This document shows positions 26,945-50,100 of a DNA stretch of 64,000 bases, in pieces. The notes beneath the pieces are model-generated. The model ran no database searches and was not told where the DNA came from. It saw nothing but the letters and a program-made list of their open reading frames with translations. The translations under genes and the position numbers were made by a program. Each line of letters begins with the position of its first letter. The stretch's first letter is position 1. The stretch is from Amycolatopsis balhimycina FH 1894 (GTDB lineage: Bacteria; Actinomycetota; Actinomycetes; Mycobacteriales; Pseudonocardiaceae). The DNA lies in contig NZ_KB913037.1 of NCBI RefSeq assembly GCF_000384295.1, positions 9,747,508-9,811,507 on the forward strand, in the 5' to 3' direction.

Positions 26945-26972
26945 TGGGTAGTATCAGCTGGGTAGTATCAGA
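26945..26972 (+). repeat. 14-bp direct repeat in the HxlR promoter
   Basis: TGGGTAGTATCAGC is followed at once by TGGGTAGTATCAGA, 13 of 14 bases identical. TAGTAT may serve as the -10 element of the HxlR gene, so the duplication may have doubled the promoter. Confidence 0.7.
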
Positions 26973-27016
26973 CTGTGGACGCACAGCGGACGGAACTCGG
27001 CGAAGGAGGTGACGGG

Positions 27017-27412
27017 ATGCCCGACTTCGAGCACGATGCCCTGGTCGCGGACGTGTTCAGCGCCGCGTGTGCTTCGCGCACGTTGCTGGAACACGTCACC
27101 GGCAGATGGGGCGTCCTGGCGCTCGTCGCGCTCAACGACGGTGTCTTCCGGTTCAACGCGCTGCGCCGCCGCGTGCAGGGGGTCAGCGAGAAGATGCTCG
27201 CCCAGACGCTGCAGGCGCTCGAGCGCGACGGCTTCGTGCACCGGGAAGCCCGCCCGACCATCCCGCCGCACGTCGAATACAGCCTCACGCCGGCGGGCCG
27301 GGAGGTCGCGGGGCGGCTGCTGGGGCTGATCGAGTTCCTGGAGGCCGGTGTTCCGGCCGCCATGGCGGCTCAAGCTCGTTACGACGAAGCGAAAGCCGGT
27401 AGCGCGGGATAG
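27017..27412 (+). CDS. HxlR-family transcriptional regulator
   Basis: A 131-residue winged helix regulator: LLEHVTGRWGVLALVALNDGVFRFNALRRRVQGVSEKMLAQTLQALERDGFVHREA (residues 23-78), then VEYSLTPAGREV. HxlR proteins commonly sense quinones or aldehydes through a Cys; one Cys lies at the start (SAACASR). ATG 27017 is favoured by an excellent GGAGGTGA site; an upstream GTG at 26975 lies inside the promoter repeat. It probably controls the divergent quinone reductase. Confidence 0.9.
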   Translation: MPDFEHDALVADVFSAACASRTLLEHVTGRWGVLALVALNDGVFRFNALRRRVQGVSEKMLAQTLQALERDGFVHREARPTIPPHVEYSLTPAGREVAGRLLGLIEFLEAGVPAAMAAQARYDEAKAGSAG

Positions 27413-27421
27413 GGAAGCCGC

Positions 27422-29074: not shown

Positions 29075-29101
29075 CCCGGGATCTTCGCACGCATCCCTCG
29101 G

Positions 29102-35181: not shown

Positions 35182-35253
35182 TGCTCCTCCGTCGAAGTGA
35201 TGGCTGTCACTTTCGGGCTGTGCCATAGTGCGAGTCAACAATTTGCGTCAGAG

Positions 35254-35270
35254 ACGATCACAAACGATCA
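35254..35270. promoter_or_regulatory. Direct-repeat operator between divergent sugar operons
   Basis: Two ACGATCA heptamers start exactly 10 bp apart, i.e. on the same DNA face, in the 109-bp gap between the binding-protein and heparinase-like genes. Direct repeats are typical of DeoR-type regulators; the DeoR-LacI hybrid at 37084 is the likely ligand. Confidence 0.5.
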
Positions 35271-35290
35271 GAACCGAAAGGGTGGCGGTG

Positions 35291-37084
35291 GTGCGACTCT
35301 TCGACGATCGTTCCGTGGCTCCGCGGCCACCGGTCCCGGACGTGCGCGACCGGACGGTCTGGGACGCCGTGGACGGCGCCGTGATCCTCGCCGAAGCCGA
35401 GGCCGTGCTCGCGCGTCCGGCACCGGTCCTGACGGCGACGGCATGGGCCAGGACGTTCCGCGACGGCATCCGGACCGACTACGAAGACGCGGCCCGCGAG
35501 CTGCGCGAACGCGTGACACTGCTGGTACTGGCCGCGGTACTCACCGGCGAGGTGCCGCCGGGGCCGGTGCCGTTCCTGGACGGCGCGATCGACGGGCTGG
35601 TCGCCCTCGCGGAGGCCACCACCTGGTGCTGGGCACCCCACGACCGGCATGCGGCCGCGCGCGAGGAAGTGCTGGCCGATCCCGGTGATCCGTTCCTCGA
35701 CCTGGGCGCGGCCGAGGTCGCGTCGCTGTTCGCCTGGGCCGACCACGTGCTGGGCCCGCACCTCGACCTCCGCGCACCAGGGCTGCGCAGACGTTTGCGA
35801 CGCGAGGTCGAGATCCGCGTCCTGACGCCGTTCGAGCGCGTCCGCGACTGGCACTGGCTCGGCCTCGACGGCGACGCGCACAACTGGAACCCGTGGATCC
35901 ACAGCGCCGTCCTCGCCGCCGCGCTCCTGCTCGTGGCCGACGACGAGCGGCGCCGGCGGCTGGTGCGGCTGGTGATCGAAGGGCTCGAGCACTACGTCGC
36001 GGTCCTGCCCGACGACGGCGGCGTCGACGAGGGGGTCGCCTATTGGTGGCACGGCGCCTGCCGGCTGCTGGAGTGCCTCGACTTGCTCGCCGACGCGGGG
36101 GACCTGCCCGTGCTGCCCGCGCTGATCCGCTTCCCGCACCGGATGCACTTGGGTGACGACGCGTACGTCAACGCCGGAGACGCTCCGGCCCGCCTGTCAC
36201 CGGCCCAGCCGTGGCACGTCCTGTACCGGTGGGGCGAGCGGTTCGGCGACGACGAGGTCCGGGCCCACGCGGTGAGCCGGGCGCGCGCGGGCGGGCGGCT
36301 CGTGTGGCCGTCGGCCGGTCTCGGCCGGGCTCTGTCCGGCTTGGCCGACCCGGACTGGCGGAAGGCGGAACCGGACGGGACCTGGCTGGCCCGCGAGGAG
36401 TGGCTGCCGCGGGTGCAGGTGCTGGTGGCCCGGGAGACGGCGGGCACGCCGCGCGGGCTGACCGTGGCGGTCAAGGCCGGGCACAACGGCGAGCGGCACA
36501 ACCACCTCGACGTCGGGTCCTACTGGGTGGCCGTCGACGGGGTGCCGGTCGTGGTGGACGCCGGCCAGCCGACCTACACGGCGGACAGCTTCGGGCCGGA
36601 CCGGTACCGGGCCTGGCCGTTGCGTGGTGAGTGGCACAACGTGCCCGAGCCGGGCGTCACGCAGGAACCGGGGGAGACCTTCGGGGCGCGGGACGTCCGG
36701 GTCGAGCTCACCGCGGCCTCGGCGACGCTGTCCGCGGACCTCGCCGGCGCCTACCCGGGTGTGCCGCGCTGGATCCGGTCGGTGCGCCTGGTCCGGGGCC
36801 CCCACGCACACATCCTGGTGACGGATGACGAGAGCGTCCGGCCGGTCCGGCTTCGGCACGTCCTCGCGGGCGACGTCGAGCTGGGGGACGGCGAAGCGTT
36901 CGTGTCCCTCGCCGGCACGCGGGTTCTGCGGCTGAGCTGGGACGCCCGGTGCACCACCGCCGAACTCGAGCGGCGGCCGCTGGACGACCCGCTGCTGCGG
37001 GCCTCCTGGGGCGATCACCTCAGCCGGCTCACGCTGCTGGTGCGCGACGGCCCGGCGCGGGTCCGGCTGGAGCAGGTCCGGTGA
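35291..37084 (+). CDS. Heparinase II/III-like polysaccharide lyase
   Basis: 597 residues. N-terminal two thirds are an (alpha/alpha) toroid (LDGDAHNWNPWIHSAVLAAALLLVADDERRRRLV, DEGVAYWWHGACRLLE). The C-terminal beta-sandwich is the heparinase II/III-like domain with the diagnostic GHNGERHNHLDVGSYWV, then VVVDAGQPTYTADSFGPDRY and GEWHNVP. Such enzymes cleave uronic-acid polysaccharides such as alginate or glycosaminoglycans. There is no signal peptide, so it acts on imported oligomers. GTG 35291 is preceded by AAAGGG; a GTG 9 bp earlier is possible. Confidence 0.82.
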   Translation: MRLFDDRSVAPRPPVPDVRDRTVWDAVDGAVILAEAEAVLARPAPVLTATAWARTFRDGIRTDYEDAARELRERVTLLVLAAVLTGEVPPGPVPFLDGAIDGLVALAEATTWCWAPHDRHAAAREEVLADPGDPFLDLGAAEVASLFAWADHVLGPHLDLRAPGLRRRLRREVEIRVLTPFERVRDWHWLGLDGDAHNWNPWIHSAVLAAALLLVADDERRRRLVRLVIEGLEHYVAVLPDDGGVDEGVAYWWHGACRLLECLDLLADAGDLPVLPALIRFPHRMHLGDDAYVNAGDAPARLSPAQPWHVLYRWGERFGDDEVRAHAVSRARAGGRLVWPSAGLGRALSGLADPDWRKAEPDGTWLAREEWLPRVQVLVARETAGTPRGLTVAVKAGHNGERHNHLDVGSYWVAVDGVPVVVDAGQPTYTADSFGPDRYRAWPLRGEWHNVPEPGVTQEPGETFGARDVRVELTAASATLSADLAGAYPGVPRWIRSVRLVRGPHAHILVTDDESVRPVRLRHVLAGDVELGDGEAFVSLAGTRVLRLSWDARCTTAELERRPLDDPLLRASWGDHLSRLTLLVRDGPARVRLEQVR

Positions 37085-38202
37085 TGCTCGCGTCGGAACG
37101 GCACCAGCTGATCCTTTCGCTGGTGCGCGAGCACGGCGCGATCCGGCTCGCCGAACTCGTCGAGCGGCTCGGCGTCACCGCGGTGACCGTGCGCCGGGAC
37201 GTCACCGAGCTGGCCGACCGCGGGCTGCTGACGCGCGTGCACGGCGGGGTCACGCTGACCCGGCCCCGCGGTGGCCACCCGGAGCCGGGGCGGGCCGCCT
37301 CGGTGTTCGGCCCGGCCGTGCCCGGCGCGCTGGTCGGCATGGTCGCGCCGTCCGTGGAGTACTACTGGCCGACGGTGATCCAGGGCGCCCAGTCCACTGT
37401 GGCCACGGCGGGCGGGCGGCTGGTCCTGCGCGCCTCCAGCTACGACGCGGCGGAGGACCGCCGTCAGATCACGAAGCTCCTCGAACGCGGGGTGCAGACG
37501 TTGCTGGCCGCGCCGGCCACCAGGGGCCGCGGTGCCCTGGATCTGCTGCGCTGGCTGGGCACGCTGAACGTCCCGGTGGTGCTCGTCGAACGCCTGCCCC
37601 CGCCGGAGCTGCCGACGCTGGCCCTGGACGCCGCCACGACGGCCCACGCGCTCGGCGCCGGTTTGGCCGTCCGCCACCTGGTTTCCCTGGGCCACCGCGG
37701 GGTCGGGCTCGTCACCTCGCGCTCCAGCCCGCACAGCCCGGCCGTGCGCACCGGCTGGCGCGAGACGACCGCGTCACTGGGCCTGGACGCCGGCGCGGCG
37801 CTGGATCTCGACGTCCCGGCCTACGGCTCCCGGGGCTGGGCGGGCGAGTACGACACGTTGCTGGACCGCTGCCGCCGGGCCGGCGTCGGCGCCCTGCTCG
37901 TGCACGCCGACCGCGAGGCCATCGGCCTGATCGAACGGGCCCGCGACGGCGGCATCGCGGTGCCCGGCGAGCTGGCGGTGGTCTCCTACGACGACGAGGT
38001 CGCCGCGGCGTCGGACCCGCCGCTGACCGCGGTGTGCCCGCCGAAGCACCGGCTCGGCGCGGTGGCCGCGGAACTCGCGCTGGCCCGGCTCGCCGACACG
38101 ACCGAGCGGCCCGTGCACCGGCTGCAGCTCTGGCCGACGCTCGTGGTTCGCGAGTCGTGCGGCGGGGCGCCGGAATTCACGCCGGAACTCGCGGCGGAGT
38201 GA
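37084..38202 (+). CDS. DeoR-type HTH fused to LacI-type sugar-binding domain
   Basis: 372 residues. Residues 1-60 are a DeoR winged helix (RHQLILSLVREHGAIRLAELVERLGVTAVTVRRDVTELADRGLLTRVHGG). Residues 80-355 are a periplasmic-binding-protein-like sensor as in LacI (GALVGMVAPSVEYYWPTVIQGAQ, LGHRGVGLVTSRSS, VVSYDDEVAAASDPPLTAV). The ATG overlaps the heparinase-like stop by one base. It probably senses a sugar of this locus and controls both divergent operons. This domain pairing is less common than LacI-LacI. Confidence 0.88.
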   Translation: MLASERHQLILSLVREHGAIRLAELVERLGVTAVTVRRDVTELADRGLLTRVHGGVTLTRPRGGHPEPGRAASVFGPAVPGALVGMVAPSVEYYWPTVIQGAQSTVATAGGRLVLRASSYDAAEDRRQITKLLERGVQTLLAAPATRGRGALDLLRWLGTLNVPVVLVERLPPPELPTLALDAATTAHALGAGLAVRHLVSLGHRGVGLVTSRSSPHSPAVRTGWRETTASLGLDAGAALDLDVPAYGSRGWAGEYDTLLDRCRRAGVGALLVHADREAIGLIERARDGGIAVPGELAVVSYDDEVAAASDPPLTAVCPPKHRLGAVAAELALARLADTTERPVHRLQLWPTLVVRESCGGAPEFTPELAAE

Positions 38203-38376
38203 AATCGTCGAATTCGAGCACCCTTTTCAGGGGGTACGGCCAAACGGCGGATCCGGTTGTGTCGAAGCGGTAACGACCGGATCGCGATCTCGGGATTTAC
38301 AAGATGTGGACCACCTCCTACTCTCCGCGAACGGGACATGCGGCTCTTCGCATGTGGGGAATCGGAGGTGGTTCGG

Positions 38377-38787
38377 TTGACGCGCCCGACGGGGGCAACG
38401 GCCAGGCAGCAGATTTCGGTTCAGGAATTGATTCAGCGGGTGCGCGCGGAGAATTCCGCGCCCGCCACGGCGGACCGCGTCGACCAGCGCGTCCGGGCGG
38501 TCGTGGCACGGGAAAAGGGCCGCGCACAGCCGGACAGCGTCACGCGGTGGCTGGTGGTGGGCGCGGGGGTGGTGACCGCGCTGAGCGCGTTCGCGCTGGT
38601 TTCGTTCGCGGTGAGCGACGATCCGGAGCCGGTACCGGCGACCCAGCCGGGCCGTCCGCCGGCGGTATCGGTGCCGATCACGTTCGCCGGCACCCGGACG
38701 GTCACCGAAACGGTGGAGCCGCCGATTTCAACGTTTTATCTACCGTACGGCTCGCCTTACGGCAGCTATTACACGCCGGCGAAGTAG
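38377..38787 (+). CDS. Small single-pass membrane protein with Pro/Tyr-rich outer tail
   Basis: 136 residues from a TTG start that has a perfect GGAGGTGG site 7 bases before it; a longer start at ATG 38338 is possible. The cytoplasmic part has ISVQELIQRVRAEN and is charged. One membrane helix spans residues 58-79. The outside tail is rich in Pro and Thr and ends with YLPYGSPYGSYYTPAK. Family not recognised. It is convergent with the pseudokinase gene, sharing a bidirectional hairpin. Its small size and cytoplasmic helix suggest a regulatory or substrate role for nearby kinases; conjecture. Confidence 0.6.
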   Translation: MTRPTGATARQQISVQELIQRVRAENSAPATADRVDQRVRAVVAREKGRAQPDSVTRWLVVGAGVVTALSAFALVSFAVSDDPEPVPATQPGRPPAVSVPITFAGTRTVTETVEPPISTFYLPYGSPYGSYYTPAK

Positions 38788-38797
38788 GCGCCCGCAA

Positions 38798-38854
38798 AGT
38801 TCGTGAAGGCCACCTTGAGGAACATAGAGTTCCTCAAGGTGGCCTTCACGAACT
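38798..38854. repeat. Intergenic hairpin repeat (26-bp arms)
   Basis: 57 nt: perfect 26-nt arms starting AGTTCGTGAAGGCCACC around a 5-nt loop. It starts 10 bp past one stop and ends 9 bp before the opposing stop, thus filling a convergent gap. The arms differ from those at 18377 mainly by compensated T-to-A type changes in both arms, so pairing has been kept. Confidence 0.85.
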
Positions 38855-38863
38855 ACGGAAATC

Positions 38864-39730
38864 TCAGGAAGTGAATCGGAGCGCGAGGCGGCGGAGGGCG
38901 GCGTGGGTCGTCACCGCCGTGCCGAGAGCGACGACGAGCACGGTGCCGGTCACCAGGACACGCGTGCGGGCCCTGGTGGCGCGGGCCGGGAGCTCGGCGA
39001 GCGGACGGGCCACGGCGAGGCCGGTGAGCGTCCGTTCCGCTTCGGCCATCGTCGGCCGGGCCGCCGGCTCGTGCCGCAGCAGTGCGAGCACGGCGTCGAG
39101 GACCGGCCCGCCGGCCGACGGCGGCACGCTGGTGCCCGGCGGCCGCCCTTCGAGGGCGAAGTAGAGGGTGGCGCCGAGGGAAAAGACGTCCGCGGGACAC
39201 GCCGGGGGAGCGCCCGCGGTTACCTCCGGGGCGGGGAACGGGCCGTCGCCCAGCCCGAAGCCGTCGATCTTCGCGGTCCCGTCCCCGGTGACGAGCACCC
39301 GGCCCGGCCCGATCCCGCGGTGCAGGATGCCGTCGGCGTGCGCGGCCGCCAGCGCCGAAGCCAGCTGGGCGCCGAGCGCCGCGACGCGGTCTGACGGGAA
39401 GCTCCCGTGCTGCTCGAGGAGGGCGGCCAGCGTCCGGGTCGCCAGGTACTCCGTCACGACGTACGGGGTGATGTCCTGCTCGAAGACGTCGTGCACGACG
39501 ACCGCATGCGGGTGCCGCAGCCGGATGGCCACGCGCGCTTCGCGGATCGCCTTGGCCCGGACGCGGTCCGAGTGGGCCGCGTCGAACGGGCAGCCGGGCG
39601 GCAGCCGCTTGACGGTGACGAACCGCTCGAGCAGCTCGTCGCGGGCCCGCCACACCGTGCCCCCGTCGCCGTCGCCGAGGGGGTCGAGCAGGCGGTACCG
39701 CCCGGCCAGGTCTGCTTTTTTCGCTGCCAC
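38864..39730 (-). CDS. Membrane-anchored Ser/Thr pseudokinase
   Basis: 288 residues from GTG 39730. It has a PknB-type kinase fold (Gly loop LGDGDGG, Lys41 in VTVK, APEV, the DVFSLGATLYFALEGRPP helix) but the catalytic elements are lost: HRD is HRG (Gly139), the metal-binding Asn is Arg144, and DFG is GFG (Gly157). One membrane helix follows at 257-275, with almost no outside domain. It is therefore a pseudokinase, probably a scaffold or allosteric partner of the two intact kinases nearby. Frame and length are intact, so it is not a decaying gene. Confidence 0.85.
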   Translation of the reverse strand: MAAKKADLAGRYRLLDPLGDGDGGTVWRARDELLERFVTVKRLPPGCPFDAAHSDRVRAKAIREARVAIRLRHPHAVVVHDVFEQDITPYVVTEYLATRTLAALLEQHGSFPSDRVAALGAQLASALAAAHADGILHRGIGPGRVLVTGDGTAKIDGFGLGDGPFPAPEVTAGAPPACPADVFSLGATLYFALEGRPPGTSVPPSAGGPVLDAVLALLRHEPAARPTMAEAERTLTGLAVARPLAELPARATRARTRVLVTGTVLVVALGTAVTTHAALRRLALRFTS

Positions 39731-39756
39731 CCGTATTCCCCCGTCCACGTCGTCGG

Positions 39757-39776
39757 CCTCACTGGGGAATACGGCC
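39757..39776 (-). promoter_or_regulatory. Conserved upstream element, pseudokinase copy
   Basis: On the minus strand GGCCGTATTCCCCAGTGAGG, matching 17 of 20 bases of the element at 42403-42422 upstream of the first CBM2-kinase. It lies about 27 bp before the start in both cases, so it may be a shared promoter or operator. Confidence 0.45.
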
Positions 39777-39843
39777 GAGAGGCGCAATGGGTTCGGTGGA
39801 TCGGCCTATTGTTCCGGCCGGCCCGCCGGTGCGGGAAGCGCTT

Positions 39844-40875
39844 TCAGCGAACGGCGGCGGCGGTGGTTTCGCCGGGGACGAAGGCCGGGGTGACCGATTC
39901 CGGCCCGGCCGTCGAACCGTCGAGCCGGCGCACGGCCAGTTCGACGGCCAGCGCGCCCAGTTCACGGGCCGGGATCACCACCGCGGCCGGCGGGATCCGC
40001 TGGTGGCGGGCCACGGTGTCCGAGCACACGGCCACGACGGAGACGTCGGCGGGGACCCGCAGCCCGCGGTCCCGCAGCGCCGCCAGGACCAGGGGAAGTG
40101 CCGCTTCGTCGTGGACGACCAGGCCGGTCGCCTCGCCGGCGGTGAGGACGTCGTCCAGGCAGCCGCCGACGTCTTCGGCCGCCGGCGCGCACGGCCGGGA
40201 GACCACGCGCACGCCGCGCCGGACGGCGGTGATCCGGAAGCCTTCGGCGAAGTCCGCCAGGTACCCCGGCCGGCGACCCGACGGCTCCAGGTGGGCGATC
40301 GAGCGGTGGCCGAGGTCGGCGAGGTGGGTGGCGCAGGCCTGGCCGGCCGGTGTGCAGTCGAGCGTCACCGAGGCCAGGCCGTGGTGCCGCCCGGGTGCGC
40401 CGACCAGCACCGCGGGGCGGCCCGAGGCGAGCAGCACGGGCACGCGCGGGTCGTCGTCACCGGCGTCCAGCACGATCACCGCGTCGGCCAGCGCGGCCGA
40501 CGTCACCCGGTGCAGGCCCGACGTGCCTTCGTCGTCGGTGACCAGGAGCAGGTCGAACCCGAGCTCGCGGGCCGCGCCCGCGGCCGCGGCGAAGAACTCC
40601 ATCTCCACCCCCGGGTGCCGGTCGCCGTGCAGCGGCACCGCGACCGCGAGGACACCGGCGCGGGTCGTGGGGAAGCCGGCGCGGCGCCGGTAGCCGAGGG
40701 TCCGGATGGTCTCCTCGACCCGCCGCCTCGTCGCCGCGGAGATCGTCCGCTTCCCGGTGATCACGTAGGACACCGTGCTCGCCGAGACACCGGCGGCGTT
40801 CGCCACGTCGGTGATCGTCACCGCGCCACGGCCGGCGCCGGACGGCTCGTCCGCCGCGTCGCGGGAGTTCGTCAT
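39844..40875 (-). CDS. LacI-family transcriptional regulator
   Basis: 343 residues. Residues 18-65 form the LacI headpiece (VTITDVANAAGVSASTVSYVITGKRTISAATRRRVEETIRTLGYRR) including the hinge. The rest is the sugar-sensing domain. It lies between the pseudokinase and the first CBM2-kinase, on the same strand. A LacI-like half-palindrome upstream suggests autoregulation. It could also act on the operator before the GH54 gene; unproven. Confidence 0.9.
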   Translation of the reverse strand: MTNSRDAADEPSGAGRGAVTITDVANAAGVSASTVSYVITGKRTISAATRRRVEETIRTLGYRRRAGFPTTRAGVLAVAVPLHGDRHPGVEMEFFAAAAGAARELGFDLLLVTDDEGTSGLHRVTSAALADAVIVLDAGDDDPRVPVLLASGRPAVLVGAPGRHHGLASVTLDCTPAGQACATHLADLGHRSIAHLEPSGRRPGYLADFAEGFRITAVRRGVRVVSRPCAPAAEDVGGCLDDVLTAGEATGLVVHDEAALPLVLAALRDRGLRVPADVSVVAVCSDTVARHQRIPPAAVVIPARELGALAVELAVRRLDGSTAGPESVTPAFVPGETTAAAVR

Positions 40876-40925
40876 TGTGGAGCACTTTCTCGGAGCCCAT
40901 TGTCCGGTCCGTTGTCCGGCCGGGA

Positions 40926-40937
40926 GTTAGCGTTAAC
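40926..40937. promoter_or_regulatory. LacI-type operator upstream of the LacI gene
   Basis: GTTAGCGTTAAC is a 12-bp palindrome with one mismatched pair, 51 bp before the LacI start. Similar core to the GH54 site (TTAGCG). Confidence 0.55.
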
Positions 40938-41026
40938 ACGATCAAGGGAAGGCTGACCATAATGCCCGGCAACGGCGCTGGTCAAGCCACCATCGTCGGA
41001 TTGCGGAAGAACGTCCCCATCGCGAT

Positions 41027-42376
41027 TCATCCCGCCGGGCGGCAGTCGGTCACGGGTATCCCGCGGCGGCCGCCGCGGGCCAGGGCGACGAAGCCGAAGG
41101 TGGTCGTTTCGCCGGGGCGCAGCACCGCGTTCCACTCGGCGCTCGTGATCGCCGAGGTGCTCCCGGTCCGCACCAGCGTGCCGTTCCACAGGTCGTCGAT
41201 GCTCGTCCCGGCCGGGTTCGCCCAGCTGACCGTCCAGCCGGCGAGACCGGCGCGCCCGCTGTTGCGGACGGTCACCAGGCCCTGGAAGCCGCCGTCCCAG
41301 GACTTCACGACCTGGTAGCGCGCGGCGCAGGCCGGCGGACCGGCCACGACGGACGTGACCGCCGTGGAAGACGGCGCCGAAGCGAGCTGGGCCGGGGCGC
41401 TCGCGGGTTCCCGGCGCGGCGGGATCGACATCGCCACCACGATCGCGGCCGTGGTCAGGACCAGCGCGGTGCCGGCGAAAACCACCCGGGAGCGACGGGA
41501 GCGGCGGGGGCGGGCCGGCCCGGGCTCGGGCGGTTGCGGTGTGCTCGGCAGGGCCGCTCCCGGGAGGGTGGAGCGGGTGAACAGCCGGGCGGCCTCGGCC
41601 ATCGTGGGCCGGGCGGCCGGATCGGAGTGGAGGAGCCGGAGGACGACGTCGGTGGCCGGGCCGCCGGTGCGCGGCGGGATGATGTCGCCGCTGCCGACGC
41701 GTTTGAGCAGGGCCAGCTGGTTGTCGTCGGTGCCGAACGGCGGCCGCCCTTCGAGTGCGGTGTAGAGCGTCGCGCCGAGTGAGTAGACGTCGGAGGGGAA
41801 GCCGGGTTCGGCGCCGTCCGCGACCTCCGGGGCCAGGTAGGCCGGCGTGCCGACGACCAGCCCGCGTCCGGTGGCGCTGCCTTCGCCGCGCGCGTGGGCG
41901 ACCCCGAAGTCGGTGATCTTCGCCGCGCCGTCGGTGGTGACGAGGACGTTGTTGGGACTGATGTCGCGGTGCACCACGCCTTCCGCGTGCGCCGCGGCCA
42001 GCGCCGAGGCGAGCTGGCCGCCCAGCTCCGCCGCGTATTCCGGCACCAGCGGGCCCTCTTCCTCGAGGAGCTCGGTGAGCGTGCGGGACGGCAGGTACTC
42101 CATCGCGATGTACGACATGGACTCGTGCTCGACGACGTCGTACACGACGACCGCGTGCGGGTGCCGCAGGCGGGCGGCGACGCGGGCCTCCCGGATCGTC
42201 CGCTCGCGGGTGCGCTCCGCGGCCGCCGGGCCGGCGGGGGACTCCGGGAAGAGCTGCTTGATCGCGACCACGCGGCCGAGCCGTTCGTCCTTCGCCCGCC
42301 AGACGGCTCCCATCGCGCCGTGACCCGCCCGGCCGAGTACGCGATAGCGGTCGGCGATCACTGCCCCTTCGTACAC
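41027..42376 (-). CDS. Membrane Ser/Thr protein kinase with extracellular CBM2 module
   Basis: 449 residues from GTG 42376 (AGGGGAG site 7 bases upstream). Residues 10-265 are an intact PknB-type kinase: Lys40 in VAIK, Asp138 in HRDISPNN, Asp156 in DFG, APEV. Residues 298-317 are the membrane helix. Residues 350-446 form a bacterial type 2 carbohydrate-binding module (cellulose/chitin/xylan binding) bounded by Cys350 and Cys445, with exposed-type tryptophans 360, 381, 397 and 415. The architecture implies that polysaccharide or cell-wall glycan binding outside controls phosphorylation inside. Tandem with a second kinase of the same design. Confidence 0.88.
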   Translation of the reverse strand: MYEGAVIADRYRVLGRAGHGAMGAVWRAKDERLGRVVAIKQLFPESPAGPAAAERTRERTIREARVAARLRHPHAVVVYDVVEHESMSYIAMEYLPSRTLTELLEEEGPLVPEYAAELGGQLASALAAAHAEGVVHRDISPNNVLVTTDGAAKITDFGVAHARGEGSATGRGLVVGTPAYLAPEVADGAEPGFPSDVYSLGATLYTALEGRPPFGTDDNQLALLKRVGSGDIIPPRTGGPATDVVLRLLHSDPAARPTMAEAARLFTRSTLPGAALPSTPQPPEPGPARPRRSRRSRVVFAGTALVLTTAAIVVAMSIPPRREPASAPAQLASAPSSTAVTSVVAGPPACAARYQVVKSWDGGFQGLVTVRNSGRAGLAGWTVSWANPAGTSIDDLWNGTLVRTGSTSAITSAEWNAVLRPGETTTFGFVALARGGRRGIPVTDCRPAG

Positions 42377-42402
42377 GAACAAGCTCCCCTCAGCCGGTGT
42401 GA

Positions 42403-42422
42403 CCTCATCGGGGAACACGGCC
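42403..42422 (-). promoter_or_regulatory. Conserved upstream element, CBM2-kinase copy
   Basis: On the minus strand GGCCGTGTTCCCCGATGAGG, 27 bp before the kinase start; 17 of 20 bases identical to the element before the pseudokinase. Suggests shared control of the two genes. Confidence 0.45.
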
Positions 42423-42560
42423 GGTTCCGGCGCCGAGTTCGGCCAACCGGCGGGAATCACTCACCTGGGTGGGGGATACGGAATAGCGTTCGACGATTTC
42501 GCTCCGGATCCCGGAATGGTGTTGAGCCGCTACGGAAAAAAGGCCGACCCGGTTGTGTCG

Positions 42561-42580
42561 GAACGATAACGGTATCGTTC
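42561..42580. terminator. Short hairpin after the second CBM2-kinase
   Basis: GAACGATA and TATCGTTC form a perfect 8-bp stem around ACGG, 5 bp beyond the kinase stop. No T-run, so it may be an operator rather than a terminator. Confidence 0.35.
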
Positions 42581-42585
42581 GCCGC

Positions 42586-43986
42586 TCAGTTCGTCCGGCA
42601 GCTCACGACCGGGACGGCGCCGCGGCCGCCGGTGCGGATTTCGTTCAGCCCGAAGGAAGCCGACGCGCCCGGTTCGAGCAGCGCGTTCCAGCCCGCGTCC
42701 GTGACGGTCACCGACGAGCCGTCCTGGGTCAGGGTGCCGTTCCAGAGGTCCCGGATGCCGGTGCCGGCGGCCAGCACCCACGTCACCGTCCAGCCGCTCA
42801 GGCGCGCCGGCCGGTCGTTGTGGACGGTCACCTGCGCCTGCGCCCCGTCCGGCCAGGCGCTCGTCACCTCGTAGCGCGCGGTGCACCCGCCCTGGGCCGG
42901 TGCGGTGGTGGTGGGGTGCGGCGACGACGACGGCGTCGGTGGCGTCTCGGCGGCCCGGAGCCGCGTTGCCAGAGCCGCCGTCGTGGTGCTGCTGACGGTG
43001 TGGTCCGCGGTGACGGTCGTCGCCGGGTACTGGATGGGCGCCGCGGTGGTCTCGGGCCCGTCGGTGAGGGTGACGCCGGTCACCACGCCGGCGCAGGTCA
43101 AGCTCACGGCGAGGGCGGACACCGCGACGCGGCGGAGCCGGGATCGGCGGGGGACGTCCGCGTCGGCCGGGCGGCCCACCGAGGCCAGCAGCTCCACCGT
43201 CTCCTGCATCGACGGGCGCGCGGCGGGGTCGCGTTCGAGCATCCGCATCAGCACCCCGGTGAGCGGGCCGCCGTGGGCGGGCGGGGCGAGCTGGTTTTCG
43301 GTGATCCGCCGGAGCAGGGTGATCGGGTCGTCGCTGGTGCCGAACGGCGGAGTGCCCTCCAGGGCGGTGTAGAGCGTGGCGCCGAGCGAATACACGTCCG
43401 ACGGCAGGCCGGCCTCGCCGCCGCGGGCGACCTCCGGAGCCACGTAGGGGAGGGTGCCGACGACGACGTCTTCCTCGGCGGCGGGGTGCTCGCCGAGCGC
43501 GCGCGACACCCCGAAGTCGGTGATCCGGGCGGTGCCGTCGCCGGTGACGAGCACGTTGTTCGGCGTCACGTCCCGGTGCAGGATCCAGTCCCCGTGCGCG
43601 GCGGCCAGTGCCGCGCCGACCTGCCGCCCGAGCCGGAGCACGTCGCACCGCGGCAGCGGTCCCCGTTCGACGAGCAGGTCGGTCAGCGACCGGGCGGGCA
43701 CGTACTCCATGACCAGGTACATCGAGCCGGCGTCTTCGAACACGTCGTAAACCGCGATGGCGTTCGGGTGCCGGAGCCGGGAAGCCAGCCGCGCTTCACG
43801 CAGCGCCCGGTCGCAGGTTTCGGCGGCCGTGCCGGGGTCGGTCGACGGCTCCCGCAGGAACTGCTTGACCGCCACCACGCGGTCCAGCCGCTCGTCCCTG
43901 GCCCGCCACACGAGGCTCGTCGCGCCCCGGCCGAGGTGTCCCAGGAGCCGGTATCGCCCGTTCACGAGCTGTTCCTCGAAAGCCAC
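42586..43986 (-). CDS. Second membrane Ser/Thr protein kinase with extracellular CBM2 module
   Basis: 466 residues from GTG 43986 (AGGGG site). Intact kinase domain, residues 11-270: Gly loop LGRGATS, Lys41, Asp139 in HRDVTPNN, Asp157 in DFG, APEV. Membrane helix 287-306, a Thr/Pro/Ser-rich spacer 311-367, then a CBM2 module 368-463 with terminal Cys368 and Cys463 and tryptophans 378, 399, 403, 415 and 433. Compared with the first kinase the outer linker is longer, so the module would stand further from the membrane. The two probably arose by duplication and may heterodimerise. Confidence 0.88.
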   Translation of the reverse strand: MAFEEQLVNGRYRLLGHLGRGATSLVWRARDERLDRVVAVKQFLREPSTDPGTAAETCDRALREARLASRLRHPNAIAVYDVFEDAGSMYLVMEYVPARSLTDLLVERGPLPRCDVLRLGRQVGAALAAAHGDWILHRDVTPNNVLVTGDGTARITDFGVSRALGEHPAAEEDVVVGTLPYVAPEVARGGEAGLPSDVYSLGATLYTALEGTPPFGTSDDPITLLRRITENQLAPPAHGGPLTGVLMRMLERDPAARPSMQETVELLASVGRPADADVPRRSRLRRVAVSALAVSLTCAGVVTGVTLTDGPETTAAPIQYPATTVTADHTVSSTTTAALATRLRAAETPPTPSSSPHPTTTAPAQGGCTARYEVTSAWPDGAQAQVTVHNDRPARLSGWTVTWVLAAGTGIRDLWNGTLTQDGSSVTVTDAGWNALLEPGASASFGLNEIRTGGRGAVPVVSCRTN

Positions 43987-44395
43987 CCATACCCCTGCGC
44001 CGGTCGACGATTGCCAAAACGCTCTGCTTTTTAGCAGATGATCGGCTTCGGGTGGGGCTTCGGCGGCAACCGTTATCGGAATCGATGCGTTCGACGGTCG
44101 TTTTGTATTCCGAACATTGGGGGTACCGGTGTCCGGGATCGACGGATTCGCCGTGTCCGGATTCCGGCGGGGAGGCGCGGTGGTGTGGTTGACGGGTCGT
44201 AGGCCGGCCGGCGGCCGGGTGATCGGCAGGCGGCGTGGGAGCAGCCGCCGGTGCAGGTGAGGGCGTACCGTGTGGGACACCGCGGTTCAACCGGTAGCCG
44301 CCCGCTCGTTCCCCTGCGCCCGCCCCGCAGGTGGCGCGGGGGCGGGCCCGCTGCCCGGATCCCCGGCGCCACCCCCTCGCTCCGAGGAGGTCCTT
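43987..44395. other. Divergent promoter region, kinase / STAS genes
   Basis: 409 bp without a convincing gene. A relatively AT-rich patch spans 44010-44120. It includes a small hairpin at 44023-44038 (TCTGCT, TTTT, AGCAGA) close to the kinase start. The right part is GC-rich with a strong GAGGAGG site for the STAS gene. Confidence 0.5.
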
Positions 44396-44806
44396 GTGCT
44401 CGACCAGATCGCCGCGCCGAGCTCCCGCGTCGACGTTCCCACCGTGATGACCCTGCGGGTGACCGCCACGGCGGAAGCCACGGTCGTCACCGTCCGCGGG
44501 GAGATCGACCTGCCGGTGCTCGGCCGGCTGAGGAGCCGGGTGGGGGACGAGATCGACCTCGCGCCGCGGGCGCTCGTGCTGGACCTCATGGAGGTCGTCT
44601 TCTGCGGCGCCGGCGGGATCACTGAGCTGCTGGTCGCCGCTTCGGAAGCCCACGTCAGCGGGGTGTCGTTCGCCATCGCCACGGATCGGCGGGCCGTGCT
44701 GCGCCCGGTCCGGGTCCTGCGGCTGGAGCAGGCGCTGCCGATCCACCACAGTGTTCCCGCCGCCCTGGACTGGCTGGCCGTGCTGCCCCGGCTCCGCCGC
44801 CCCTGA
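44396..44806 (+). CDS. STAS-domain protein (anti-sigma-factor antagonist-like)
   Basis: 136 residues. The STAS fold is seen from residue 19: VTATAEATVVTVRGEIDLPVLGRLRSRV, then ALVLDLMEVVFCGAGGITELLVAA. In classical antagonists such as SpoIIAA the loop reads D-S-S/A-G with a phosphorylatable Ser; here it is CGAGG, so that Ser is missing and phosphorylation control is unlikely. GTG start with GAGGAGG five bases before. The next gene follows 22 bp downstream. Confidence 0.8.
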   Translation: MLDQIAAPSSRVDVPTVMTLRVTATAEATVVTVRGEIDLPVLGRLRSRVGDEIDLAPRALVLDLMEVVFCGAGGITELLVAASEAHVSGVSFAIATDRRAVLRPVRVLRLEQALPIHHSVPAALDWLAVLPRLRRP

Positions 44807-44828
44807 CCCCCGGAGGAGGTGAGCCGCC

Positions 44829-45125
44829 GTGCCCGAGCGCCGTGACCCGTACGTCGTGCTGGGCGTCGCCGCGACCGCGACGGACCGCGAGCTCGCCGCC
44901 GCCTTCCGCCGCCGGGTCCGGGAGGCGCACCCCGACGCCCCGGGCGGCGACGGCGACCGCCTCGCCGCGGTGGTGGCGGCCTACGAACTGCTGCGTGACC
45001 CCCGCCGGCGCGCCGAGTTCGACCGTCGCCGCACGCGCGGGGTCCCAGTGGCGGTCCGCCGTCACCCCGGCCGGACCGCGGACGCGCCGGACCTGCGTGC
45101 GGGACCGGTGCGCCACCACTCCTAG
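44829..45125 (+). CDS. Short J-domain protein
   Basis: 98 residues. The J domain is complete: RDPYVVLGVAATATDRELAAAFRRRVREAHPDAP with the HPD motif that triggers DnaK ATPase, then YELLRDPRRRAEFDRRR. No zinc or C-terminal substrate domain, only a basic tail. It would be a specialised DnaK co-chaperone. GTG start with GGAGGAGGTGAG. Operon with the STAS gene is likely. Confidence 0.82.
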   Translation: MPERRDPYVVLGVAATATDRELAAAFRRRVREAHPDAPGGDGDRLAAVVAAYELLRDPRRRAEFDRRRTRGVPVAVRRHPGRTADAPDLRAGPVRHHS

Positions 45126-45153
45126 CGCCAGGACCTCCGGCGTCCCAGACCCG

Positions 45154-46137
45154 TCACCGGTTCTCCAGCCGCTCCCGCTGCGGCGCCACGACGTACTTGG
45201 GGTCCTTTGTGGACGCGACGCCCGCCTCGAACACCCCGAACCGCTGCAGCACGCTCCCGGCGACCAGCGCCGTTCCCGCGGCCACGGAGACCGCGCGGCC
45301 GCGGTGCCCGAGCAGCGTGCCGGCCAAACCGGCGGCGGTCAGCCGTTCGGACCACTTCCGCAAGCGGTGCGCTTTGCCGGTGGTGTAAGCCTCCGCTACG
45401 AGCCCGAGCCGCTTTTCCAGCACCTTCGACGCCACCAGCTCGGTCGCCGCGCCGAAGGCGGCAAGCGCGCGGGCGGGACCCGCTTCCGCCACCGGCACCA
45501 GGGCCATCGCGAAGCCGCCGGAACTCGCGGCCGCCGAGCCGACGAAGACGAATGGCAGCTGCGCGTGCGCTTCGTGCCAGGCCGGGACCGCGGTCTGCGA
45601 CAGCAGCACGGCCGTATAGGACGCGACCGCCGGGGCGACGACCGCGGAGGAGAGCCCCGCGGGCCGGGCCGCCGCGCGCAGCAGCCTGCCGGGCAAGGTG
45701 CGGCGCAGCCCGGACGGCAGCACCTCGGCGGCCGCGGCGAGGCCCACCCCGGGCCCATAGGCGGTGAGGATCCAGGTGCCCACGCTCATCGGCGACGTCG
45801 GTTTCGCCACGCGCAGCATGTGGTGGAACCGCTCCGGCCGCCCGAGGTCGGCGACGAGCAGGTACGCACTCGCCAGCAGCGCCGCGAGGGAACCGGTCCG
45901 CCCGGCCCGGCGCAGGGCCGGCCGCCCCGTCAGGTCCGCGCCGGCGGCCAGCAGCGCGGTGCCCGCCGACAGCCCGCCGGTGAACAGGTACGCCGGCACC
46001 TTCCACTCCCACACCGGCGGCTTGAGCACCGGACGGCCGTAGTACGACCGGAACTCGGCCGGGGGCACCATCAGCTCTTCCCGGGAGCGGCGCTTGCGGC
46101 GGCCGAAGGGCCGGCCGGCGGCCTGGGCGTCGCTCAT
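45154..46137 (-). CDS. NrfD-type membrane subunit of formate dehydrogenase
   Basis: 327 residues with about eight membrane helices, polysulfide-reductase NrfD family (YLFTGGLSAGTALLAAGADL, DLGRPERFHHMLRVAKPTSPMSVGTWIL). This subunit would pass electrons from the iron-sulfur subunit to menaquinone. Translationally coupled to the beta subunit through ATGA and last in the three-gene operon. Confidence 0.88.
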   Translation of the reverse strand: MSDAQAAGRPFGRRKRRSREELMVPPAEFRSYYGRPVLKPPVWEWKVPAYLFTGGLSAGTALLAAGADLTGRPALRRAGRTGSLAALLASAYLLVADLGRPERFHHMLRVAKPTSPMSVGTWILTAYGPGVGLAAAAEVLPSGLRRTLPGRLLRAAARPAGLSSAVVAPAVASYTAVLLSQTAVPAWHEAHAQLPFVFVGSAAASSGGFAMALVPVAEAGPARALAAFGAATELVASKVLEKRLGLVAEAYTTGKAHRLRKWSERLTAAGLAGTLLGHRGRAVSVAAGTALVAGSVLQRFGVFEAGVASTKDPKYVVAPQRERLENR

Positions 46138-47165
46138 CGGCGCCGTCCCCCGAACGCCGCGACCGCGGCCGCGAGCAGCGCCGAGGCGGCCATCCCGGCG
46201 TACTTCCACATGGCGGGCAGCTCCCGGGTCGGTACCACCGGGTCCGGCGGCAGCCCGTAGACCTCGGGTTCGTCGAGCAGCAGGAAGAACGCGCCGTTGC
46301 CGCCGACGCCGTCTTCGGGGTCGTGGCCGTAGAGCCGGGCCTCGGTGACCCCGCGCTCGTGCAGTTCCTCGACGCGGCGGGCCGCCCGCTCGCGCAGCTC
46401 GTCGAGCTCGCCGAACTGGATCGAGTCCGTCGGGCAGGCCTTGGCACACGCCGGTTCCAGGCCGTCGTGCAGCCGGTCGTAACAGAGCGTGCACTTCTGC
46501 GCCCGCCCGTCGCCCGGACGGCGGTCGATGACCCCGTACGGGCAGCCGGAAACGCAGTAGCCGCAGCCGTTGCAGATGTCCTGCTGCACCACGACCGTGC
46601 CGAACTCGGTGCGGAACAGCGCGCCGGTCGGGCAGACGTCGAGGCAGCCCGCGTGCGTGCAGTGCTTGCAGACGTCCGACGCCATCAGCCAGCGGAAGTC
46701 GGTGCGCCCCTCGGCGCCGGTCTTCGCGCCCGGCAGGTCGAACGACGGCATCCCGAGGTCTTCCGGCGCCCGCGGCAGCGGAGAAGTGCCCAGCTCGCCG
46801 CCGCCGCGTGGGGCGTCTCGCAGCTCGTCGGCGACGAACGCGGTGGTGACATCGATCGCGGACGGCCCGGTCGGCAGCCCCTCGAGCCCGGCCGACTGCT
46901 CGCCGAGCGGGCGCCGCTGCTCGATGAACGCGACGTGCCGCCACGAGTTCGCGCCCAGCGCGCCGGTGTTGTCGAACGACATCCCGAGCAGGTCGAGCCC
47001 GTCCTCGGGCACGTGGTTCCACTCCTTGCAGGCGACTTCGCAGGCCTTGCAGCCGATGCACACCGACGTGTCGGTGAAGAACCCGGCACGCGGCGGGTGC
47101 CCGGTGTGCCCGGCCTCGGCGGCGACGTCCGGCAGCGGCCCGGACAGCCGGTTCTCGGCGCTCAT
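46134..47165 (-). CDS. Formate dehydrogenase iron-sulfur (beta) subunit
   Basis: 343 residues with four [4Fe-4S] Cys groups: CIGCKACEVACKEWN near residue 36, CKHCTHAGCLDVCPTGA, CNGCGYCVSGCPYG, and CTLCYDRLHDGLEPACAKACP. A C-terminal helix (AGMAASALLAAAVAAFGG) could anchor it in the membrane. It wires the catalytic subunit to the NrfD-like subunit. Overlaps both neighbours by 4 bp. Confidence 0.92.
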   Translation of the reverse strand: MSAENRLSGPLPDVAAEAGHTGHPPRAGFFTDTSVCIGCKACEVACKEWNHVPEDGLDLLGMSFDNTGALGANSWRHVAFIEQRRPLGEQSAGLEGLPTGPSAIDVTTAFVADELRDAPRGGGELGTSPLPRAPEDLGMPSFDLPGAKTGAEGRTDFRWLMASDVCKHCTHAGCLDVCPTGALFRTEFGTVVVQQDICNGCGYCVSGCPYGVIDRRPGDGRAQKCTLCYDRLHDGLEPACAKACPTDSIQFGELDELRERAARRVEELHERGVTEARLYGHDPEDGVGGNGAFFLLLDEPEVYGLPPDPVVPTRELPAMWKYAGMAASALLAAAVAAFGGRRR

Positions 47166-50100
47166 GATGGGTCCTCCGTCGTGTGGCCGGGTTCGACGTG
47201 CGGGACCTGGTGGACCGTCGCCACCCGGGTTCCCGTCTCCGGGGTGATGCCCGCCCGGGCGCGGTACTGCGCCAGCAACGCGGTCAGCGCGGCACCGCGC
47301 GGCCGCCGTCCGGGCCGGACGTCGCAGGTGGCGACCTTGCTCTCCTGGATGAACACGTTCGGGTCCACGACCACGCCGAGCAGGTCGTTGACGACGTCCC
47401 GCGAGACCAGCCCGGCCGAACCCCAGTGGTAGGGCAGCCACACCTGGTGCACGACCCGGTCCTGCACCCGCAGCGGCGCCATCCGGTCGGTCACCATGAC
47501 CCGCGCCTCGACGGCCGCCCGCGCGGTGATCACGTGCGCCCAGCCCAGGTGCGCCAGCCCGCGCAGTTCCGCCAGCTCGGGGGAGACCTCGACGAACAGG
47601 TCCGGCTGCAGCTCCGACAGGTACGGCAGCGTCCGGCTCATCCCGCCGGCGGTGTGGTGCTCGGTCAGCCGTGCGGCGGTGAACACGAACGGGAACACCT
47701 CGCCGCCTTCCTCGGGCGGCGACGGGTGGGACGGGTTGTCCCGGCGGCCGTAGACCTTCCGCGCCGGGTTGCCCTGCTGGGTGTAGAACGGGTTGCGGAA
47801 CGGCGATTCGTGCGGCTCGTAGTGTGTCGGCAGCGGGCCGTCGGCCAGCCCCGACGGGGCGAACAGCCACGCCTTGCCGTCCGACTGCATGACGAACGGG
47901 TCGTCGCCGCGCAGCGCGGCCGGCCCCACGGCACCCGGCGGCGGCACGTGGTCCGGCGGCTTGGTCTTCTCGAAGTCGGGGACGTCGTGCCCGGTCCATT
48001 CGCGACGGCCGGCGTCCCACCACACGAGGGCTTTGCGCTCGCTCCACGGCCGTCCCCGGGGGTCGGCGGACGCGCGGTTGTAGAGCACCCGCCGGTTCAG
48101 CGGCCAGACCCAGCCCCACTCGAGGGCGGTGAAGTCCTGCTCGAACCGGGACTTCCGGCGGGCGGCCTGGTTGACGCCGCCGGCGTAGACGCCGCTGTAG
48201 ATCCAGCAGCCGCACGACGTACTGCCGTCCGCCTTGAGATCGAGGTAGCCGGACAGCTCCTTGCCGGTGGTGAGGTCGAGGCCGTTGATCCGCCGCAGGA
48301 CGTCCTCGGCCGACGGCTCGTCGCCGTGCACCTCGTGGTCCCAGGCGAGGTCGAGCACCGGGCGGTCGCGCTCGTCGGCGGAGCCGGCCAGCCGCTCCCG
48401 GACCAGCCGCCCGAGGTGGTGGAAGAACCACAGCTCCGACCGCTGGTCGCCGGACGGCTCGACGGCCTTTTCGCGCCACTGCAGCATGCGCTGGGTCTGG
48501 GTGAACGTCCCTTCCTTCTCCACGTGCGAGGCGGCGGGGAAGAAGAACACCTCGGTGCGGCACCGCTCCGGCGCGATTTCGCCGGTCTCGATCTCGGGCG
48601 CGTCCTTCCAGAAGGTGGCGCTCTCGATCATCGTCAGGTCCCGGACGACCAGCCAGTCGAGGTTGGCCATGCCGAGCCGCTGCAGGCGGCCGTGCGCGGA
48701 GCCGACGGCCGGGTTCTGCCCGAGCAGGAAGTAGCCGGACACCTTGCCGTCGACCATGTCCATCACGGTGCGGTAGGTGCCGTGGTCGCCGTTGATCCGC
48801 GGCAGGTAATCGAAGCAGAAGTCGTTGTCAGGCGTGGCTTTCTCGCCCCAGTACTCCTTCAGCAGCGACACGGTGTAGGCGTCGGCGTTGCGCCAGAAGC
48901 CCTTCTGCTTGTCGCCGCGGATGCTGTCGATGTACTCGTCGAGTGTCGTGTGCTCCGGGGTCGGCATCGGCAGGTAGCCGGGCAGCAGGTTGAACAGCGT
49001 CGGGATGTCGGTCGAGCCCTGGATGCTGGCGTGCCCGCGCAGGGCGAACACCCCGCCGCCGGGCCGGCCGATGTTGCCCAGCAGCAGCTGGATGATCGAG
49101 CCCGCGCGGATGTACTGCGCACCGACACTGTGCTGGGTCCAGCCCACGCTGTAGACCAGCGCGGCGGTGCGTTCGCGGCCCGAGTTGCGCGTCCACGCGT
49201 CACAGACCCGCTGGAAGAGCTCCTTCGGCGTCCCGCAGGTGGCCTCGACCATCTCCGGCGTGTAGCGGGCGAAGTGGCGCTTGAGGATCTGGAACACGCA
49301 CCGCGGGTGCTGCAGCGTCGGGTCGGCGGCGATCTCTTCGCTGCCGCCTTCGAGCACCGGGCCGCCGGAGCCGTGCTGGTCGGCCGGCGACGTCTCCTTG
49401 CCGTGGCCCGTCCCGTCCGGCGGCCGGACGCTCTCGTAGTGCCAGGTCGACGGGTCGTACGCGGCCTTGGCCTCGTCGTAGCCGCTGAAGAGGCCGTCGA
49501 GGTCCTCGGTGTCCCGGAAGTCCTCGCGTACCAGGAACGAGGCGTTGGTGTAGGCGACGACGTACTCCCGGAAGTCCAGGTCGTTGCTCAGGATGTGGTG
49601 GATCACCCCGCCGAGGAACGCGATGTCCGTGCCGGCGCGCAGCGGGACGTGGGCGTCGGCGAGCGCGCTCGTCCGGGTGAAGCGCGGGTCGATGTGGAAG
49701 ACCTCGGCCCCGCGGGCCTTCGCCTCCATCACCCACTGGAACCCCACCGGGTGCGCCTCGGCCATGTTCGAGCCCATGATGACCACGCAGTCGGAGTTCT
49801 GCAGGTCCTGCTGGTAGTCCGTCGCACCGCCGCGACCGAAGGAGGTCCCCAGACCGGGAACCGTGGCGGAGTGTCAAATCCGGGCCTGGTTCTCGATCTG
49901 GATCGCGCCGAGCGCGGTGAAGAGCTTCTTGATCAGGTAGTTCTCTTCGTTGTCGAGGGTGGCACCGCCGAGGCTCGCGATGCCCATGGTGCGCCGCAGC
50001 GGCGCGCCGCGAGAGTCGGTCTCCTGCCAGCCCTTGCGCCGGGCGTCCAGCACACGGTCGGCGACCATGGCCATCGCCGTGCCGAGGTCCAGGTCGGTCC

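Follow-up and report, generated by a model that had tools for sequence, protein, structure and literature searches.

How does an aerobic bacterium without cellulosomes detect insoluble cellulose? To our knowledge this is an open question, the familiar models being LacI repressors that sense soluble oligomers. It is posed here by a locus of Amycolatopsis balhimycina FH 1894 (genome of 10.86 Mb, one contig), in which two receptor Ser/Thr kinases, K1 and K2, each end in a family 2 carbohydrate-binding module (CBM2) and are encoded on the minus strand in the transcription order K2, K1, a LacI-family regulator (LacI-1) and a membrane pseudokinase, with a small membrane protein (smTM1) on the plus strand. 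All positions refer to the stretch of 64,000 nucleotides that was analyzed (the window), and the comparisons within the genus to 80 Amycolatopsis genomes (G-numbered), kinship among the compared genomes (e.g. the 15 that carry K1) being uncorrected in all counts. The answer that we favour, tentatively and with less than even confidence, is that K1 and K2 are receptor kinases which sense contact with the plant wall and act in alliance with a regulon for hemicellulose (arabinoside/galactoside).

The Pfam analysis identified Pkinase and CBM_2 domains both in K1 (159 and 82.1 bits, open reading frame 41027–42460) and in K2 (163 and 85.5 bits, open reading frame 42586–44280), the curated cut-off of the CBM_2 profile being 24 bits. 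Both proteins retain the VAIK/VAVK, HRDxxPNN and DFG motifs, and among the 15 K1 genomes the β3 lysine, HRD, the catalytic-loop Asn and DFG are kept in 15/15 rows for K1 and in 13/15 for K2 (G067 was missed by the HRD pattern and the row of G043 is shortened). By these motifs K1 and K2 are Hanks-type receptor Ser/Thr kinases, with predicted catalytic activity. Hydropathy analysis left 133 (K1) and 161 (K2) residues after the best hydrophobic stretch, and both proteins are predicted to possess a single transmembrane segment with the C-terminal domain outside the cell. In the AlphaFold2 model of K1 (mean predicted local distance difference test score, pLDDT, 71; predicted template modelling score 0.56) the kinase domain is resolved and residues 378–475 form a strand-rich domain (pLDDT mostly 82–91, with a dip to 56 at 461–470), the linker and the transmembrane part being unpredicted. 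A Foldseek search with whole K1 returned PknA, Stk1 and PknB as the best solved matches, and all 50 matches listed are kinases. Pfam searches of K1 and K2 matched neither PASTA repeats nor, at E 0.01, the N-terminal, sigma-I-binding RsgI domain. The inventory given by an earlier sequence-only reading of the window thus proved sound: two intact kinases ending in CBM2 (for which it had named the CBM2-model search as a check), a third kinase-fold protein devoid of catalytic residues, a LacI gene and a small Pro/Tyr-rich membrane protein among them, with outer limits (38377 and 43986) that coincide with the likely starts of smTM1 and K2. Its label of a phosphorelay was wrong, since these are Ser/Thr kinases.

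To characterize the ectodomain we aligned 122 kinase CBM2 sequences, i.e. 119 of 120 database matches, K1 and K2 from the window and a third kinase of the same genome, K3 (K1 and K3 are counted twice among these rows). Both cysteines, Gly21, Trp18, Trp39, Trp43 and Trp55 are invariant (122/122), and position 73 is Trp in 120 sequences and Tyr in two; the cysteine pair and the five tryptophans bear out what had been noted of the outer modules by eye. The three tryptophans of the binding face are kept in 122, 122 and 120 sequences, respectively, and since the non-kinase CBM2s of the same genome (18 of 20 aligned, all except L022 and L023) have Trp at position 73 in only 11/18 cases and Tyr in 7/18, the binding face of the kinases has not decayed. 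Searches of the PDB matched the kinase CBM2 to 6f7e (7e-17), 1exg (2e-12) and the ChiC module 2rtt (1.2e-11), and far worse to the xylanase D modules 1e5b (0.9) and 1xbd (4.7); the record title of 6f7e reads 'putative secreted cellulose binding protein', and we take it to be the module of ScLPMO10C. A mark of the CBM2b subfamily is an Arg in place of the Gly after the first face tryptophan, and Gly21 is present in all 122 sequences. The available part of PMC9996879 describes CBM2b as xylan binders without a stretch that bears an exposed Trp; the kinase modules carry three exposed tryptophans including that stretch, and judged by their face residues they are of the cellulose-binding (CBM2a) type. 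Cellulose is probably the ligand of the K1 and K2 ectodomains, and chitin is a possible one because the ChiC module also matches. The same source, as far as available, reports one CBM2a without several C-terminal residues that additionally binds arabinosyl groups (PMC9996879). The kinase CBM2s are likewise short at the C-terminus, with the Pfam match ending at 86 (K1) and 89 (K2) of 101, which by analogy is a mere lead towards arabinosyl binding.

The ChiC match also favours an explanation in which the CBM2s would bind either polymers resembling chitin or a putative surface glucan of the bacterium itself, so that growth or work on the envelope is what the kinases would direct. The resemblance of the K1 fold to PknA, Stk1 and PknB points in the same direction. 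A cellulose-like glucan at hyphal tips is known from Streptomyces. We regard this explanation as improbable, because the constant neighbour of the kinases is a LacI protein whose putative palindrome lies at genes for enzymes acting on polysaccharide side chains (see below).

The combination of a kinase with CBM2 is not confined to K1 and K2, the two recognized by the sequence-only reading. Both are real, but among the 23 CBM2 places and 23 kinase places of the genome three coincide, the third being K3 at 10.10 Mb. Matches to K1 that reach the CBM2 end were found in at least 48 of the 80 genomes (counted down to E ~2.8e-81 and including two matches with an internal stop, in G074 and G007), and K1 orthologues (at least 66% identity) in 15. 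PF00553 is present in 119 of the best 120 database matches; the best named relative of K1 (93% identity) is from Amycolatopsis vastitatis, A. mediterranei S699 encodes a K1 with 76% identity, and outside the genus the named matches are from Prauserella and Saccharomonospora. The architecture is already visible in annotations, that of one relative reading 'Protein kinase domain/Cellulose binding domain', and we found no paper that studies kinase-CBM2 proteins in the open-licence literature searched. Elsewhere in the genus, G002 (L075:5815-12105) and G033 (L076:8049-14423) encode a CBM2 kinase convergent with a different LacI, with an ABC sugar transporter nearby (the L075 pair of kinase and LacI was confirmed by Pfam). 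The A. balhimycina genome also encodes a predicted non-kinase membrane protein (L002, G000:C1:2570473-2573775) that by eye has a VDELL-type N-terminal stretch like that of smTM2, a second small membrane protein described below, but an outer CBM2 where smTM2 has its Pro/Tyr tail.

Comparison of gene neighbourhoods revealed which genes stay together: K2, LacI-1 and K1, with the pseudokinase where kept. LacI-1 is the fixed neighbour of the kinases, as had been supposed, and the three genes lie together in 15/15 K1 genomes, including the divergent and rearranged G067 (K1 66% identical), where K2, LacI-1, K1 and the pseudokinase occupy ~7 kb without any of the flanking genes. The sequence-only reading had coupled the kinases, as a glycan-sensing module, to the adjacent heparinase/DUF2264 locus (27422–38202), and had named a neighbourhood comparison across Amycolatopsis as a check. 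The adjacency holds in 14/15 K1 genomes, where one flank carries a heparinase-like gene (PF07940 19.4 bits, below the cut-off of 24; shortened in G043), a solute-binding protein, two permeases, a 2-hydroxyacid dehydrogenase, a DeoR/LacI gene and usually DUF2264. But the other flank is equally kept in those 14 genomes (STAS 14/14, NrfD and molybdopterin gene 12/14), and retention of both flanks in the same 14 identifies them as one lineage with a conserved region. The linkage is broken in G067, where 0.94 Mb separate the heparinase-like gene from K1, and in G071 and G015, which possess the gene (65%) and lack K1; moreover, the sugar locus has a DeoR/LacI-type regulator of its own (36949–38202). 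Joint conservation, on which the sequence-only reading had staked the union, thus fails for the sugar locus and in part for the pseudokinase, and stands for K2, LacI-1 and K1. We give the union with the heparinase/DUF2264 locus a very slim chance; the kinases and their companions form a real signalling set, for which the LacI regulon and the K1-box, described below, are better-supported partners.

LacI-1 comprises a helix-turn-helix and a sugar-binding domain (Pfam LacI and Peripla_BP_3). Upstream of its gene the palindrome GTTARCGYTAAC is present in 20/20 genomes, i.e. the 15 with kinase-linked LacI-1 and five others. The A. balhimycina genome contains 15 exact copies (reversed control: 0), and each of the 14 besides that of LacI-1 itself has as its neighbour a gene for a carbohydrate enzyme, an epimerase or sugar transport, 12/14 of them being of arabinosidase or galactosidase type. 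According to Pfam the neighbours are glycoside hydrolase (GH) families GH54 (three sites, one shared with a gene for a GH78-like N-domain), GH62 (two), GH127 (one), a GH43-like gene (one, L093; 30.7 bits, under the cut-off of 32.2), an AbfB-domain protein (one), GH59 together with a GH6-CBM2 protein (one), GH27-type Melibiase_2 (two), GH35 (one), aldose epimerase (one) and another LacI with a sugar-binding protein (one). A site with one mismatch (19298–19309) precedes the GH54 gene of the window (19510–21051), and G067 has two exact sites by a GH54 gene 8–9 kb from LacI. The sites number 8–20 in genomes with kinase-linked LacI-1 (n=15), 7–10 with LacI-1 alone (n=5), 0–11 where a LacI-2-like paralogue alone is found (n=24; 42–54% identity, one of 52% being present also in A. 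balhimycina) and 0–2 where neither is found at 1e-45 (n=36), so that at least 7 sites occur in 20/20 genomes with LacI-1 and in 5/60 others. This site distribution gives good support to a regulon of enzymes that release arabinose and galactose; LacI-1 is likely its regulator, possibly with a partial role of LacI-2, and by co-occurrence LacI-1 is the putative binder of the palindrome (candidate site GTTAGCGCTAAC). A cellulose-repressor box, TGGGAGCGCTCCCA, was also considered and rejected, as the window contains one site with two mismatches and 0.57 are expected by chance.

A second conserved element, the K1-box (CGTTAYCGNTYCGNCACAACCG(GATC)...CCGTA, 42 bases in total), is found upstream of K1 in 15/15 genomes, G067 included; in G065 its 22-base part has one mismatch. 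Five of the K1 genomes encode smTM1 at this place, each with another copy of the box beside it, and the remaining ten lack this copy. The scan of the A. balhimycina genome with up to two mismatches revealed three sites (control 0), the third being at 8240113, inverted, ~85 bp upstream of the gene for smTM2 (L083:6220-6735, ~8.24 Mb), a second small Pro/Tyr-rich membrane protein encoded between the MurJ and GH18 genes, and this arrangement of smTM2, K1-box, MurJ and GH18 recurs in 6 named Amycolatopsis contigs. In a collection of 84,980 species genomes the 25-base form matched 16 stretches, of which 15 are in Amycolatopsis (seven by K1, two by smTM1, six by smTM2) and the sixteenth is at an unrelated place in an alphaproteobacterial metagenome-assembled genome. 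Near K3 and the CBM2 genes of A. balhimycina other than K1 we found only weak matches (L001, three mismatches in the core; L026, four in the box). Upstream of K1 the arrangement AAC-N17-CGT resembles what we take to be a promoter of an extracytoplasmic function sigma factor; because the box is inverted at both small-protein genes, it may be a promoter or an operator. The distribution of the box suggests that K1 is co-controlled with smTM1 and smTM2, and the copy between the MurJ gene and smTM2 is a further point in favour of a role of the kinases at the bacterium's own surface.

The third kinase-fold protein of the locus (Pkinase, 82 bits, open reading frame 38864–39787) has HRG in place of HRD, Arg in place of the catalytic-loop Asn and GFG in place of DFG, with the β3 Lys kept; its predicted model is kinase-like. 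Among 30 such proteins the HRD Asp is kept in 3, the DFG Asp in 6, the Asn in 7 and the β3 Lys in 6, no member keeps the HRD Asp, Asn and DFG Asp together (0/30), and the losses differ by lineage. By residue loss this is a true pseudokinase, predicted to be catalytically inactive. The pseudokinases form one clade (support 100/100) that groups with K1 (100/99) in a tree calculated without K2 of G043 (stop in the translation), P0163 (too short after cropping), P0089, P0167 and P0174 (start pattern missing), which is hence midpoint-rooted. The window protein (in its 294-residue form) ends 12 residues past the hydrophobic stretch, so it would be unable to sense the outside by itself. In nine genomes (G067 and G065 excluded) simple counting gave a median ratio of nonsynonymous to synonymous substitution rates (omega) of 0.34 for the pseudokinase, near the 0.32–0.38 of K1, K2 and LacI-1, which argues that the retained copies are constrained. 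We put a role as a modulator of K1 at only slightly under even. This series, with its differing residue losses per lineage, offers a natural experiment on what bacterial kinases do apart from catalysis.

Taken together, these data permit the following proposal. The extracellular CBM2a of K1 and K2 would grip crystalline cellulose (or chitin), and binding may cluster or hold the receptors, whose cytoplasmic kinase domains would then phosphorylate cytosolic targets, LacI-1 being a candidate substrate. LacI-1, as an autoregulated repressor acting on its palindrome, would silence arabinosidases, galactosidases and the GH6-CBM2 cellulase; wall-derived sugars would release it, and contact with the wall, reported by the kinases, would be a further input to the same response. 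The pseudokinase may modulate K1 via its kinase-fold face, and the K1-box would bring about joint expression of K1 with smTM1 and smTM2. That the kinases are wall-contact sensors seems to us somewhat the better bet, and their coupling to LacI-1 is doubtful, well below even. The most demanding version, a contact-gated Ser/Thr switch in which the CBM2a kinases and the pseudokinase gate the LacI repressor, so that enzymes are secreted only when the wall is touched and sugar has been released, with K1 co-controlled through the K1-box, we consider unlikely.

Several observations weigh against the proposal. Five genomes (G024, G041, G016, G047 and G069) hold LacI-1, between TerC and NrfD, and 7–10 operators; K1 and the pseudokinase are missing from these genomes altogether, and the 20-kb stretch around LacI-1 is also free of K2 and of sugar-locus matches, so the regulon stands without the kinases. 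LacI-2-like proteins accompany up to 11 sites in the absence of LacI-1, and both regulators may use the palindrome. The kinases themselves are tied to the LacI regulon by neither an operator copy nor a K1-box, and no K1-box was found upstream of K2 (the K2-upstream alignment excludes G038, G065 and G054, where the anchor is missing). In the alignment of kinase-linked LacI proteins against the five others no phosphoacceptor is unique to the former. The pseudokinase is lost or broken in 5/15 K1 genomes (no match was found in G043, G077 and G054, G050 retains a fragment and G065 a truncated copy), so it is not obligatory. A substantial minority share of our confidence goes to the explanation that the kinases and LacI-1 are independent neighbours kept by descent, the CBM2 kinases, K3 among them, being surface receptors that serve the genus in a general way. 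Another CBM2-kinase match is present in at least 33 of the 65 K1-free genomes (few of these loci were inspected, and their neighbours varied), and besides the five genomes without adjoining kinases, the conservation of both flanks in 14/15 agrees with it. Against independent neighbours stands G067, which keeps K2, LacI-1, K1 and the pseudokinase close together despite different flanks and a rearranged order, and so does an acidic tail at the N-terminus, roughly a dozen residues long (MTNxRDVADE...), present in 15/15 kinase-linked LacI-1 proteins and absent from the five others; yet these five form one clade (100/100), which implies a single event, be it a gain or a loss. The midpoint root with G067 outside would favour loss, but the branch of G067 is long. 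The tail was considered as a phosphorylation site and dismissed, as it contains no conserved Ser/Thr. We retain the wall-contact receptor kinases as the favoured explanation, with the LacI regulon as their candidate partner.

Table 1. Features of the kinase locus in the window, with positions, strands and the basis of each assignment
Feature	Position	Strand	Basis
K1, receptor Ser/Thr kinase, one transmembrane segment, C-terminal CBM2	41027..42376	-	Pfam, motifs, model, hydropathy; likely start GTG 42376 (449 aa), longest open reading frame to 42460
CBM2 module of K1 (residues 378-463 of the 477-aa open reading frame)	41072..41329	-	Pfam, PDB sequence matches, beta-strands in model
K2, receptor Ser/Thr kinase, one transmembrane segment, C-terminal CBM2	42586..43986	-	Pfam, motifs, hydropathy; likely start GTG 43986 (466 aa), longest open reading frame to 44280
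CBM2 module of K2 (residues 466-554 of the 564-aa open reading frame)	42619..42885	-	Pfam
LacI-1, LacI-family regulator, candidate arabinoside/galactoside repressor	39844..40875	-	Pfam, promoter palindrome, site scans
Palindrome GTTAGCGTTAAC, putative autoregulatory operator in the LacI promoter	40926..40937		Conserved upstream of LacI-1 in 20/20 genomes
K1-box upstream of K1, CCGTA element down to ~42530	42550..42571	-	15/15 K1 genomes; genome and collection scans
Second K1-box copy, upstream of smTM1 and inverted relative to it	38254..38275	-	5/15 K1 genomes
Membrane pseudokinase grouping with K1, no ectodomain	38864..39748	-	Pfam, tree, motifs, hydropathy; likely start GTG 39748 (294 aa), longest open reading frame to 39787
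smTM1, small single-pass membrane protein, Pro/Tyr-rich tail	38377..38787	+	Hydropathy; no Pfam match of the protein; likely start TTG 38377 after GGAGG (136 aa)

The smTM1 and pseudokinase genes converge on a perfect inverted repeat of 25 bases with a 5-base loop (38799–38853), perhaps a terminator, with a near copy at 18379–18433 and a 17-base part directly 3' of two CBM2 enzyme genes (L001 and L011). The Rfam scan of 26000–46000 found no RNA family. Divergent from K2 is a gene for a STAS protein (44270–44806), whose motif reads FCGAGG by eye, so that the usual phosphorylatable Ser is presumably replaced. The NrfD and molybdopterin oxidoreductase genes (45154–49786) adjoin LacI-1 in the five genomes that have it without K1, with an unassigned gene between, and the neighbour labelled 'FeS' has no Pfam match.

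With the PknA/PknB class of actinobacterial kinases K1 and K2 share the kinase fold, the catalytic motifs, one hydrophobic stretch and an extracellular sensor, but their ectodomain is CBM2 and not PASTA or one of the other types. With the CBM2s of cellulases and lytic polysaccharide monooxygenases (6f7e, 1exg) they share the fold family, the disulfide cysteines and the face tryptophans, but the modules of K1 and K2 are joined to kinases and short at the C-terminus. Pseudokinases exist in bacteria, e.g. the pseudokinase domain of MviN/MurJ, which like the window protein is a membrane kinase fold without catalytic residues, whereas the window protein stands alone and is related to the adjacent, intact receptor kinase. 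The copper MMH motif, as given in the available part of PMC12703677, is by eye absent from the K1 and K2 modules. For bifidobacteria the accessible text of PMC5928203 describes arabino-oligosaccharide regulators of the LacI family whose DNA motifs lie at arabinosidase genes, as the putative sites of LacI-1 do, but their AbfR has one or two target genes, as against the 15 sites found here, and receptor kinases adjoin LacI-1.

With a receptor kinase that has a probable grip on cellulose, is common in Amycolatopsis and lies beside a regulator whose operators are defined, few genes suffice to test contact sensing directly, and if our proposal is true it would represent a route by which a soil actinomycete could sense touching plant material. 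Another route is known, that of anti-sigma factors which bear carbohydrate-binding modules: the RsgI proteins of Clostridium thermocellum, with an extracellular module, are proposed biomass sensors according to the available part of PMC4711584. As described there, RsgI resembles K1 and K2 in being a membrane protein with a C-terminal carbohydrate-binding module outside and a signalling part inside, but in K1 and K2 the output is a kinase and not a sigma-factor-binding domain, the module is CBM2 and not CBM3, and an RsgI domain is lacking. By this analogy the RsgI sensor would be the closest working analogue of K1 and K2, which are not members of its family; what is new is the receptor-kinase variant with a CBM2 ectodomain, of a kind of system that is itself already known.

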